37,112 bases of DNA from a virus. Below, in pieces: positions 1 through 37,112 of this stretch. The notes below the pieces were generated by a model. That model made no database searches. It was not told the DNA's origin and saw only the letters and a list, made by a program, of their open reading frames with translations. The translations under genes were made by a program, and so were the position numbers. Each line of letters opens with the position of its first letter. The stretch's first letter is position 1. Location: positions 1 through 37,112 of the IMG/VR virus record IMGVR_UViG_3300035583_000002, one strand, 5' to 3'.

Positions 1-307
1 CATAAACCGAAGCCCCGACCGAAGCCCCGACCGAATCCCAGACCGAAGCCCGGACCGAAGCCCGGACCGAAGCCCTAAATTTCCGGTCAAGAACAATCGT
101 CCTAGTCAATCCCTGCGAGAGTGGAGATCCGCACCACACAATCTTCCGCGGCGGAGGAAGTCCACCCAATCGATAAATCTCTCGGATCGCTGCTTCTGCG
201 CGTGGCCGATCGGCTGGTTCTGCGGATAGGCCGATCGCCAACCAACGATCTCGGAACTCCGAGAACCGCGCAGTTTGCTCAGGCGTGAGACGTTTGATTT
301 TTTTCAT
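1..307 (-). CDS. Tetrapeptide-repeat protein (DUF6745-like), N-terminal part, cut by window edge
   Basis: This reading frame starts at ATG 305-307, five bases after the stop of the 310-612 gene, and runs off the left edge without a stop. The first ~75 residues (beginning MKKIKRLTPEQ, with a later IVWCGSPLSQGLTR motif) are followed by [24 protein letters not shown] and VYG, encoded by the 12-bp repeat. The same repeat and frame continue in from the right edge into the ORF ending at 36165. Joining 307-1 to 36781-36165 gives 308 codons; joining through the 62-bp end overlap (307-68, then 37112-36165) gives 396 codons. Both stay in frame. From memory, an N-terminal LTPEQ/WCGSPLSQGLTR block, a SV-rich repeat and the C-terminal domain match DUF6745 proteins. 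Function unknown; no signal peptide or membrane segment seen. Confidence 0.85.
   Translation of the reverse strand, partial: MKKIKRLTPEQTARFSEFRDRWLAIGLSAEPADRPRAEAAIREIYRLGGLPPPRKIVWCGSPLSQGLTRTIVLDRKFRASVRASVRASVWDSVGASVGASVY
6..75 (-). repeat. Short copy of the 12-bp tandem array (left end)
   Basis: Five exact-length units of consensus ACCGAAGCCCCG plus a sixth that degenerates into ccctaaat. The array is preceded by cataaa, the same flank that precedes the long array at 36782-36787. Bases 1-63 equal 36782-36844, and bases 6-67 equal 37051-37112. This stretch therefore contains both unique flanks with only six units between them, unlike the right end of the window. Confidence 0.95.
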
Positions 308-309
308 GG

Positions 310-612
310 CTAGTCCGAAACCTGCCGGATTTCGCCTGGTGAATACTCTCTTTGACGGACGACCCGAAACGTTCCGGCTGGGAGCTTTATCTCTCGGTGT
401 TCATCGTGCTTTAGCATGGTCGGCCGAACGACTCGAAGAAATCGCTCAGTTCCCTTCGCGAGCAGCACCGCGTCAGACGCTGACGCAGCGTGGTAATGAC
501 CCGTGGCCTCACCCTCAGCCAGGATCACCCGATCACCGGATGGATCGACCTGCTCCAAACCTTCGGGTTCATCGCACGACTCCAAAAATACATCACCTTG
601 ACGTACCTGCAT
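310..612 (-). CDS. Small His-rich protein paired with the repeat protein
   Basis: 100 residues beginning MQVRQGDVF, with a good ribosome-binding site (GGAGG six bases before ATG 612). It lies 12 bases after the HTH gene and its stop is two bases before the repeat-protein ATG, so the three are probably co-transcribed. Two histidine pairs, G38-H-Y-H41 and K68-H-D-E-H72, sit in a chain that looks mainly beta (alternating hydrophobics, then LPAGTFRVVRQREY). That would suit a small metal-binding barrel, but this is inference. I recall similar ~100-residue RQGDV...GHxHA...RQREY proteins beside DUF6745 genes in other genomes. No enzymatic motif recognised. Confidence 0.82.
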   Translation of the reverse strand: MQVRQGDVFLESCDEPEGLEQVDPSGDRVILAEGEATGHYHAASASDAVLLAKGTERFLRVVRPTMLKHDEHREIKLPAGTFRVVRQREYSPGEIRQVSD

Positions 613-624
613 TTTTACCTCCAG

Positions 625-828
625 TTATGCTGCTCTTTTGGACTTCTTCTTCCAGGCCTCGACCGGGATCTCACCTTTGGTGGCATGAGCGATCTTCAGC
701 GCGCTGGTCAAATCCGGTGTCCGATACTCATGTAGCCACATCGATACGGCGGGCCGACTCACGCCGCACAACGCCGCAAACTCAAAAGGGCGCATTTTTT
801 TCCGGTCGAGATATTTCCTTAGGTCCAT
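625..828 (-). CDS. HTH transcriptional regulator (YdaS/XRE-like)
   Basis: 67 residues. Residues about 13-33 (PFEFAALCGVSRPAVSMWL) form a clear helix-turn-helix, followed by a short helix and a basic tail (KKKSKR). The size and its position at the head of one arm of a divergent promoter region resemble Cro/YdaS-type phage regulators. The ATG at 828 has no obvious ribosome-binding site of its own. It lies ten bases after the stop of an 11-codon leader ORF that has a strong one and is in the same frame, so translation may depend on reinitiation. It probably acts at the repeated 18-mers at 834-851 and 898-915. Confidence 0.85.
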   Translation of the reverse strand: MDLRKYLDRKKMRPFEFAALCGVSRPAVSMWLHEYRTPDLTSALKIAHATKGEIPVEAWKKKSKRAA

Positions 829-34156: not shown

Positions 34157-35232
34157 TGTTTCTCTCCGTAAATACCATCGCCATCGAACCCTTCCCCGTC
34201 GAGACGTTTTCCGGTGAGGAAATCAATCCGGCCGCAGTACGCGTCGAACTTCCCAACCGGTTGAGCCGATCCCTTCCCCGCATTCACCCGTCCCCCGTTT
34301 CCGCCGTCCTGCGCGCGAGCAAGCCACGCGCTGAAATACCTACGGGCCCCACGGAACGTCTTGCGCTTGGTCGGATTGTCGGCTGCCCACTGCGCGGCGC
34401 GCTTGAGCTCACGCGGCACGTCGACGCCCGGATATGCAGCCGCCCACTCGGCCGCCAAGGATTCTCTAACCGTGAACTCTTTTCGGGTGGTACCAACGCA
34501 CTGCATCGTGACGACCGGAGGGCCAACGCCTTCCGGGAAGGTCTCCGGTTCGTCGGGAACCGGGGAAGGGGGCAGTTCGGCGTCTATCGCAAACGCCTCG
34601 GTCTGCTCCCCTCCCCCGGAATCCGGGGCGGGCGGCGGCGGAACTGCCGCGGGGGGAATGATTTCCGGACTCGAGAGCTCGAGCGGTTCGGCCACCTGGG
34701 CGAAGCCGAGCGTTTTTTTCGGCTCCGCCCCTGTAGCAATTACGGAGATCTTAGATCTTTGGGGTGTTGTTGGAGTTGGAGATGAAGATGCATCTGAAGA
34801 TGGATCTGGTATGGCGTTATTTTGCGTAACGGATCCGTTACGAACCGTTACGTTACCGTTATTGTGACTGTTTTTCTCTCGGTAACGTTTTTGGCGCCGA
34901 GCATTTGCCTCGGCCTCATTATCTTTTGATAATAGTTCCCGGTATTTACCGTGGTTCAGCACCATCCACCCACCGTCTACTTCAGCAACCCTACGCCCCT
35001 CGAAATCCTTCGATCGTGAGTACGGGTCCGGGAACTGGAATTTCCGAAGCGCCTCCTCGCATTCGTCGATTGTGACGCCCGCTGTGTGAGCGAGACCTGG
35101 GATCGAGCCCTCCACTACCCCGGTCTTCCCAGCGAGGGCGAGCATCGTGATCCACACCACTTTCGTCGAGCTTGGCTCCTGCCAAACAGTCGATTGGAGA
35201 ATCGAGGAAAACAGCTTCGTATAGCCGCTCAT
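34153..35232 (-). CDS. Replication initiator-like protein (phage O/DnaD type)
   Basis: 359 residues. The first ~100 (MSGYTKLFSSILQSTVWQ..., VVWITMLALAGKTGVV, IPGLAHTAGVTIDECEEALR) match the N-terminal winged helix of phage replication proteins. A GWMVLNHGKYRELLS segment and a basic stretch (ARRQKRYREKNS) follow. A long disordered Pro/Ser region (about 130-240) leads to a C-terminal helical domain. The next gene is a DnaC-like ATPase, a standard pair. Low-complexity Asn/Ser in the middle fits a linker. Confidence 0.75.
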   Translation of the reverse strand: MSGYTKLFSSILQSTVWQEPSSTKVVWITMLALAGKTGVVEGSIPGLAHTAGVTIDECEEALRKFQFPDPYSRSKDFEGRRVAEVDGGWMVLNHGKYRELLSKDNEAEANARRQKRYREKNSHNNGNVTVRNGSVTQNNAIPDPSSDASSSPTPTTPQRSKISVIATGAEPKKTLGFAQVAEPLELSSPEIIPPAAVPPPPAPDSGGGEQTEAFAIDAELPPSPVPDEPETFPEGVGPPVVTMQCVGTTRKEFTVRESLAAEWAAAYPGVDVPRELKRAAQWAADNPTKRKTFRGARRYFSAWLARAQDGGNGGRVNAGKGSAQPVGKFDAYCGRIDFLTGKRLDGEGFDGDGIYGEKQ

Positions 35233-35561
35233 TTTTTATTCCAATCCGGGATCGAACACTGCTCGATCGGCTGGCTTTCTATCCGAGCCGAGCGCATTCC
35301 ATCTTCCATACCTTTAGTGATTCCAAGATCTATGTAGACCACGGTCGCGTCAGCCTTGGCTCCCCAGTGGAACCCAGCCGCCATCCCGAGAGTGCGCTCT
35401 GACTGGATGTCGTCTCGGAGTACGCCTGGTTGGGTGTAGAGTAGATGGCTCGCGAACGGCGCCTCGCCGCGCATAAGGCAATCACGCATCGCGGCCCGTG
35501 CGTACGCGACGTTCCGCTCAATGTCGCCCGCGTAGGGCGATTCAATCACTACGAGGCGCAT
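35229..35561 (-). CDS. DUF7768-like (deoxyribosyltransferase-related) protein
   Basis: 110 residues from ATG 35561 (GTG 35564 also overlaps the previous stop). The start RLVVIESPYAGDIERNVAYARAAM and later GEAPFASHLLYTQPGVLRDD and TVVYIDLGIT match the small DUF4406/DUF7768 family, which has a nucleoside deoxyribosyltransferase-type fold. The role in phages is not established; nucleotide handling or NAD-type signal binding are guesses. Found just before the replication genes. Confidence 0.72.
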   Translation of the reverse strand: MRLVVIESPYAGDIERNVAYARAAMRDCLMRGEAPFASHLLYTQPGVLRDDIQSERTLGMAAGFHWGAKADATVVYIDLGITKGMEDGMRSARIESQPIEQCSIPDWNKK

Positions 35562-36031
35562 CACCCGGCCCTCCCTGCGCTGTACCGCGCAACCAATTCC
35601 CGAAACTCCGCCGTGTCGCCAAGTCCACTCGCGTGGTGAAGCAGCTCATGCTCGAGCGCCGTATCGGCGATCGTCTGCGGGATGAACACCCCGAACCCGG
35701 TGCTGACCTCGATCCAGGGGTGTGTCCATTCGTCGTCGGTGTGGTATAGGCCGCACGCGGTTTTGCCGTCCGAGAGCACAATCGGTCCCGCGACGAATAT
35801 AATCACGATTGGCTTCATCTTCACGCCCAGGAAGGTCTCGACCCGCCGGGCCAACTCGAGCGTCTCGGAGATTATCGAGGTGTCCATGATCTGAAAACCA
35901 ATATTCCCAGACCAAATAGACGCCTCGGGCGCATCCCTCTTCTGCCGCGCACGGCGGATATCGAGGACGATCGCGACAACGCACGCGATCGCGGCCAGAC
36001 ACCCGGCTATAATAAGGATCACCGTCAGCAT
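35561..36031 (-). CDS. Membrane-anchored HExxH protein, putative metallopeptidase-like
   Basis: 156 residues from ATG 36031, overlapping the zinc-ribbon stop. One N-terminal span (about 2-23, LTVILIIAGCLAAIACVVAI). The soluble part has PWIEVSTGFG and then DTALEHELLHHASG, an HExxH motif with a further His. The order of motifs matches the lipoprotein at 9756-10280, so the two look like diverged copies. If active they would act outside the inner membrane. Third zinc ligand uncertain; family not recognised. Confidence 0.7.
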   Translation of the reverse strand: MLTVILIIAGCLAAIACVVAIVLDIRRARQKRDAPEASIWSGNIGFQIMDTSIISETLELARRVETFLGVKMKPIVIIFVAGPIVLSDGKTACGLYHTDDEWTHPWIEVSTGFGVFIPQTIADTALEHELLHHASGLGDTAEFRELVARYSAGRAG

Positions 36032-36168
36032 TGGCGCCTTTCGGCCGCTCGCTCGCGGGCCAGCCGGCCGCAGTACGGGCACGGCGCTTTTTCTACGGCC
36101 CGTTCGGCGAGGCAGCTCGGGCAACCGCGCGGGTCGACGGTCGGCATCCGACAGCGAGGGCAAATCAC
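36025..36168 (-). CDS. Small zinc-ribbon protein, 47 aa
   Basis: I start at GTG 36168, which overlaps the repeat-protein stop as GTGA, rather than the in-frame GTG 36219. CPRC, GCPSC and CPYC knuckles make up to six Cys in 47 residues, enough for one or two zinc sites. It follows the repeat protein and may belong to its functional group or simply be a small adaptor. Confidence 0.65.
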   Translation of the reverse strand: MICPRCRMPTVDPRGCPSCLAERAVEKAPCPYCGRLARERAAERRQC

Positions 36169-37112
36169 GTTTCGGTCCTTGGTCGATATTGCTTTGAGTC
36201 GATGATCCCAAATGTCCACGCGACGGCCCGCGCGGCCGTTTCGATATCTGGAGGAACTCTCAAAAAATAGGTCTTCCTCGATCCATCTGATTCGGGTGTC
36301 GAGTTGATCACCTCGACCATGACAATCGGTTCATCGCCTGGCTGCTCTTTACGCCATAGTTTTCCGCGCTTCGATTGATTCACCAGTAGCGCTCCAGAAT
36401 CCTTCAGGTACCGACCGTGGCCATACTGATCGACCATCACACGGCGAATTTCCGCGTTGGTCTCGGAGTCGATTGATTGAATCGTAATCGATTTTGGCGA
36501 CTCAATTATATCCGCCGGAACCCGTACACCATGCACTGCGTAGATCTTCCAGCCGTCCGGATAGGACACAGCTGGACCGCCAATCGAGTGAAGACGACCA
36601 CGATCGTCGCGTGTCAAAAACGAGTGCCTTTCACTGACCCAGCAAATATTTGCGTGTGGGATTGCCCATCCAGCGGATTTCGCCAGTTCGCACAATCCGG
36701 TGATTTTTTCGGTTTCTTTTTCGAGGCCAACCACCTCACGGAAATAATCGTAAAACGACAACCATCCCGCATCGTGCGATCCATAAACCGAAGCCCCGAC
36801 CGAAGCCCCGACCGAATCCCAGACCGAAGCCCGGACCGAAGCCCAGACCGAAGCCCCGACCGAATCCCCGACCGAATCCCCGACCGAAGCCCCGACCGAA
36901 TCCCAGACCGAAGCCCGGACCGAAGCCCGGACCGAATCCCCGACCGAATCCCCGACCGAAGCCCGGACCGAAGCCCGGACCGAAGCCCCGACCGAAGCCC
37001 GGACCGAATCCCCGACCGAATCCCCGACCGAAGCCCGGACCGAAGCCCAGACCGAAGCCCCGACCGAAGCCCCGACCGAATCCCAGACCGAAGCCCGGAC
37101 CGAAGCCCGGAC
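36165..37112 (-). CDS. Tetrapeptide-repeat protein (DUF6745-like), repeats and C-terminal domain, cut by window edge
   Basis: The open frame enters at the right edge and reads the array as V-(R/W/G)-(A/D)-S units in phase, then [19 protein letters not shown], and ends at TGA 36165. TTG 36761 is therefore an internal codon, not the start. The non-repeat C-terminal domain (~205 aa) contains [53 protein letters not shown] and AVAWTFG, which I recognise as DUF6745-type. The N-terminus is at 1-307. No catalytic motif is evident. The gene is third after an HTH regulator and a small His-rich gene, and is followed by GTGA-coupled zinc ribbon and membrane genes. Confidence 0.87.
36787..37112 (-). repeat. 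Long 12-bp tandem array, 27 units plus 2 bases
   Basis: Consensus ACCGAAGCCCCG, with no insertion or deletion through 27 units. Only two positions vary: base 7 (G or T) and base 11 (C, G or A). In the coding frame these give Ala/Asp and Gly/Arg/Trp. From the N-terminal side the (second, third) residues read RA RA WD GA GA WA RA GD GD RA GA RA RA GD GD RA RA WD GA GD GD GA WA RA WD GA GA. The pair RD never occurs. All six frames are open here, so frame choice rests on the flanking protein. Confidence 0.95.

Follow-up and report, generated by a model that had tools for sequence, protein, structure and literature searches.

Results

A gene that spans the ends of the viral contig

The window analysed here, the entire virus record IMGVR_UViG_3300035583_000002 (37112 bases), carries at its two ends the halves of a single minus-strand gene: as read from the open reading frames, the frame begins at an ATG at position 307, continues past the left edge, resumes at 37112 and reaches a stop at 36165. 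The features of the locus are as follows.

68..307, minus strand: N-terminal part of the DUF6745 gene (N-terminal domain and first array unit, up to the long-form join); ATG at 307, pattern conserved in relatives
36165..37112, minus strand: C-terminal part of the DUF6745 gene (remaining array and DUF6745 domain); stop at 36165
6..75, minus strand: left-hand stretch of the tetrapeptide array (5.8 units), which overlaps the window's right end; TRF and end identity
36787..37112, minus strand: tetrapeptide array, 27 units GTC NGG GNT TCG, encoding V-[GRW]-[AD]-S; TRF and unit alignment
36168..36791, minus strand: DUF6745 domain (PF20530); profile matches
310..612, minus strand: partner gene, 100 aa, with conserved GD, GHxH and HxxH; phrog_27831, conservation and adjacency in relatives
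625..828, minus strand: HTH_3 regulator gene upstream of the pair (context); PF01381 at E 2.8e-07, phrog_35

The ends can be joined through either of two overlaps: positions 6-67 are identical to the last 62 bases of the window, and positions 36782-36844 to its first 63 bases. The first-pass annotation had proposed a gene of 308 or 396 codons crossing the contig ends, and closing the circle and calling the reading frame bore this out, with both joins in frame and no stop or frame break at the junction by either overlap. The long join gives a product of 395 aa with 27-28 array units, and the short join one of 307 aa with 6 units; the 307-aa form may be a true length variant or an assembler short cut. 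The existence of two in-frame joins (1-67, 36782-36844) would also be compatible with array-length polymorphism within the sample.

Pattern scans revealed at least nine other IMG/VR contigs whose two ends each lie no more than a few hundred bases from a V-x-(A/D)-S array (3300031716_000030, 3300027706_000085, 3300028024_000008, 3300027496_000005 and 3300045107_000043 among them), and because of this recurrence the window ends are probably an assembly break inside the repeat. Most simply, the genome would be circular or terminally redundant, and its sequence would have been cut where the repeat was hardest to resolve. The gene does not head its operon, contrary to what had been suggested: the 310-612 gene and then the 625-828 HTH gene lie upstream of it in the minus-strand group. 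Shortly downstream is a DUF7768 gene (35229-35564, minus strand), which PHROGs describes as nucleoside 2-deoxyribosyltransferase-like.

The DUF6745 domain and its family

Residues 188-395 of the joined protein match PF20530 (DUF6745) at E 1.4e-65 and 220.9 bits, against a curated cut-off of 27, covering profile positions 8-206 of 206, and the genome search gave 222.7 bits for DUF6745; what had been noted as a resemblance is thus clear membership of the family. PHROGs matches of the joined protein were to families without assigned function only, and no mention of DUF6745 was found in the literature searched. The search with the joined protein returned 18 viral relatives, and wider profile scans returned 246 viral (IMG/VR) and 391 genome relatives, 80 of each being kept. 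Relatives conserve the N-terminal pattern LTxEQ..W..IGLSTEPADR..AE.AI..Y..AGL..P..IVWC.SP, many members (L004, L014 and L016 among them) have no array, and some plasmid members have leucine-rich-repeat-like N-terminal parts. Many relatives also end, right at the stop, in a short C-terminal motif E-T, Q-T, R-T or E-S (36165-36175 in the window).

In the model of the DUF6745 protein the terminal regions exceed pLDDT 90 while the array stays below 50, so that no fold can be claimed for the array. Sequence searches of solved structures matched the full profile through its repeat only, and matched neither the DUF6745 nor the partner profile. With the models of the DUF6745 protein and the partner, Foldseek found no match in the PDB at E <= 0.001, and VIA-align none at Z >= 5, which does not establish a new fold for either; BFVD gave three matches at E <= 0.001, all to phage proteins, two of the three being annotated DUF6745.

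A tetrapeptide array that varies at two columns

TRF detects period-12 arrays at 36787-37112 (27.2 copies, score 491) and 6-75 (5.8 copies), far beyond chance. The array had been described as an exact one, and its period is indeed exact; its sequence is not, in that columns 4 (G/C/T) and 8 (C/A) vary across the 27 units of the window while the other ten are invariant. The encoded units are V-[GRW]-[AD]-S, as the earlier V-x-(A/D)-S description held.

In a survey of 65 arrays (1518 units), mean within-array diversity was 0.65 at column 4 and 0.44 at column 8, with a median of 0 at the other ten, and 74% of all array diversity lay in these two columns. These columns correspond to position 1 of codon 2, which gives W/R/G, and to position 2 of codon 3, which gives A/D or G/D. 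In most arrays the synonymous columns are uniform inside one array and different from phage to phage; between phages the unit differs at position 1 (V/L), position 3 (A/D or G/D) and position 4 (S/Q/N), and in other synonymous codons. Three arrays (L134, L168 and L169) are exceptions, in that column 5 rather than column 8 varies, and three more (L005, L159 and L183) are more degenerate. Unit order is near random, the two variable residues (x and y) are largely independent of each other, and no x or y autocorrelation stands out at lags 1-8 to indicate a higher-order period; repeated blocks are, for all that, longer than in shuffled arrays, with some block duplication (233 versus 174 +- 5 when shuffled).

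The sister phages L114 and L116 are 98.75% (240 bp) and 95.0% (618 bp) identical in the array flanks, whereas their unit strings are as unlike as shuffled ones, at an edit distance of 20 with a shuffled mean of 19.6. In an ungapped comparison these two arrays differ at columns 4 and 8 only, with no difference in any scaffold column. Homogenised synonymous columns, diversity concentrated in two columns and turnover of unit order between L114 and L116 make up an evolutionary signature that is unusually clean, and together point to recombinational shuffling under selection: judged from these sequences, a small alphabet of units would be reshuffled by recombination and its diversity held by selection.

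A small histidine-rich partner

Two bases separate the end of the 100-aa partner gene (310-612) from the ATG of the DUF6745 gene that follows it. It matches phrog_27831, a family without assigned function, and had no match in Pfam or NCBIfam. G6, D7, H41, H69, H72 and D100 are invariant in an alignment of 54 sequences, and H39 nearly so; because these histidines are conserved, they could form a metal site. The AlphaFold2 model of the partner is beta-rich, at pLDDT 82. Among loci flanked by 1.2 kb or more on each side, 46 of the 49 viral and 73 of the 74 cellular ones have the partner on the strand of the DUF6745 gene and no more than 1.2 kb from it; the two proteins may pair physically. Whether the gene keeps the same place in other phages had been raised as a question, to which the answer is divided: the DUF6745-partner pair is kept, but the other window neighbours that were tested had no or very few matches around relatives. 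The first-pass annotation was incomplete here and elsewhere, having missed the partner gene, the two-column variation, the cellular STM4011-4015 context and the array in other proteins (the latter two are discussed below).

Discussion

Comparison with gp54 of mycobacteriophage Tweety and other repeat proteins

The closest design that we found is that of Tweety gp54, which has 48 tetrapeptide repeats (26 in Che8 gp57, 15 in PMC gp51) encoded by a 12-bp unit, with variation at first and second codon positions and the third invariant, a pattern that its authors judged consistent with selection for variation (PMC2884959). In the window protein, too, an array of tetrapeptides with a 12-bp unit lies between conserved ends; the arrays, in the window and in the 65-array survey, vary at first and second codon positions with the third invariant; G and W are among the variable residues in both; and in both the repeat number differs between related phages. 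The units themselves are unlike, being A-A-x-y in gp54 and V-x-(A/D)-S in the window, and Tweety gp53-gp56 had no match to the DUF6745, partner or full-length profiles, nor gp54 to Pfam.

Passages in two reviews state that Tweety escape mutants which beat the Phrann gp29/gp30 defence have a changed repeat number (PMC9262239, PMC8549241), and a passage in one of them proposes that the number of gp54 repeats alters the juxtaposition of the N- and C-terminal regions (PMC9262239). Counter-defence is thus reported for gp54; for the DUF6745 protein it rests on analogy, since no homology was detected between the two. The window protein is a DUF6745 member that works at most by analogy like gp54. The first-pass suggestion of an undescribed phage-host interaction module is accordingly plausible, by analogy, as regards a module, but the array design had already been described, in gp54 (PMC2884959, PMC9262239).

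A more distant case is variable region 2 of bbp36 in Bordetella phage BMP-1, which, as the Tweety paper cites it, has an isolate-dependent number of short repeats; the 24-bp unit with spacers given there is unlike the 12-bp array of the window (PMC2884959).

A proposed model for the DUF6745 protein and its partner

Observed directly were the anatomy of the gene, its membership of DUF6745, the variation at two columns, the turnover of arrays between the sister phages and the linkage to the partner. On this basis we propose that the phage carries an accessory module made up of the DUF6745 protein and its His-rich partner, with an array reshuffled by recombination under selection and retuned against a defence component. 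We put the probability of this reading at roughly 0.4, and so offer it tentatively. The accessory protein would comprise an N-terminal domain of about 75 aa, the variable tetrapeptide array and the C-terminal DUF6745 domain, would probably be co-translated with the small partner, and the two would act as one module. The array would be a rapidly evolving spacer or interaction surface, in which recombination between near-identical 12-bp units could alter how many units there are and how the six types, {G,R,W} x {A,D}, succeed one another, with selection keeping the mixture of units diverse. Following the Tweety gp54 analogy, a change in array length or order might retune the grip of the terminal domains on a partner that itself varies, most probably a defence component of the host or of a prophage.

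We infer a binding function for the DUF6745 protein from this arrangement; its counter-defence role is the best-supported guess, and is drawn from the analogy. PADLOC gave no convincing match, the matches of array proteins lying in the array or being weak, and because PADLOC is a library of defence systems this is weak evidence against a defence link.

Flexible linker or tuned surface?

It is possible, if rather unlikely, that the array is a length-tuned flexible linker, in which the number of units alone matters and the mix of W/R/G and A/D serves to prevent aggregation or to balance composition. The low pLDDT of the modelled array, the existence of DUF6745 members that do without one and the juxtaposition proposal made for gp54 in the review passage cited above would all suit such a linker. 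However, the near-maximum diversity of the two columns in very different phages seems to go beyond what a balanced composition would need.

Cellular copies and a possible metabolic origin

Plasmid copies of DUF6745 and its partner are often found beside STM4011-STM4015 genes, as in L022, L023, L024, L027 and L029, which adjoin genes for two radical SAM proteins, the STM4013 hydrolase, STM4014 and STM4015; no paper on STM4011 or STM4012 was found in the literature searched. At least one STM401x neighbour lies within 6 kb in 58 of the 80 genome-contig loci kept from 391 relatives. Cellular DUF6745 genes thus mostly adjoin this operon, and do so without an array, which suggests that the domain may have a non-defence biochemical role.

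DUF6745 and its partner might then be a metabolic or peptide-modifying module borrowed by phages, with the array an incidental repeat expansion, and the conserved histidines of the partner, which could bind metal, would agree with this. We consider it improbable: STM401x-linked copies have no array, while four genome-contig copies that do have one (L030, L031, L054 and L108) are without STM401x neighbours, three of them (L031, L054 and L108) lying near phage integrase or replication genes, and the selection-like diversity of the array would be left unexplained.

A recognition code in the array?

TAL effectors consist of near-identical repeats of 33-35 residues, each with two variable residues, that form a DNA-reading solenoid of two-helix units. 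The DUF6745 array is like them in having near-identical units with two variable residues each; unlike them, its units are of 4 residues. Its model lies below pLDDT 50. By a TALE-like code, the array would be a solenoid whose units each touch, through their two variable residues, a single element of an aperiodic ligand, be it nucleic acid, peptide or glycan, and unit order would encode specificity. Two adjacent variable residues on a fixed scaffold, with near-maximal entropy and x largely independent of y, are what such a code might look like, and similar arrays are used in unrelated phage proteins. Against this, the array was not modelled with confidence, and the wholly different unit order in L114 and L116 would imply a very fast change of target; we give the code only a slim chance.

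Two pattern scans found well over 200 stretches of V-x-(A/D)-S array. Some of the hits are to phage proteins that lack DUF6745; among them are proteins with an MCxFFS-type N-terminus and proteins with DUF7666, for which no paper was found in the literature searched. Several short or odd frames among these hits look like chance readings of repeats and may not be true families. Five of the loci (L248, L242, L268, L354 and L395) join the array to other N-terminal domains, and one group of these matches DUF7666. That the array is a portable recognition module shared by several unrelated families of phage proteins, in which an alphabet of two residues in each unit spells out specificity and recombination reorders it as phages diverge, is in our view a long shot.

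Targeted mutagenesis of the kind made by diversity-generating retroelements would put variation into two fixed columns, as is seen, but is hardly credible as its source. At column 4 it is rejected on codon grounds: random replacement there predicts arrays that hold both the AGG and the CGG arginine codon, and of the 61 arrays 1 holds both where independent draws would give 52, a result that speaks against new random mutations at this column. Column 8 takes no base other than A or C in the window.

Implications for phage biology

Should the analogy with Tweety gp54 hold, the DUF6745 proteins that carry arrays would belong to a widespread class of phage proteins capable of quick retuning through the number and order of their repeats. 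DUF6745 and the small His-rich partner, which bears no Pfam or NCBIfam name, offer a pair of definite targets for experiment, and the population pattern, in which synonymous sites are homogenised while diversity is kept at two columns, makes selection on a repeat array measurable.
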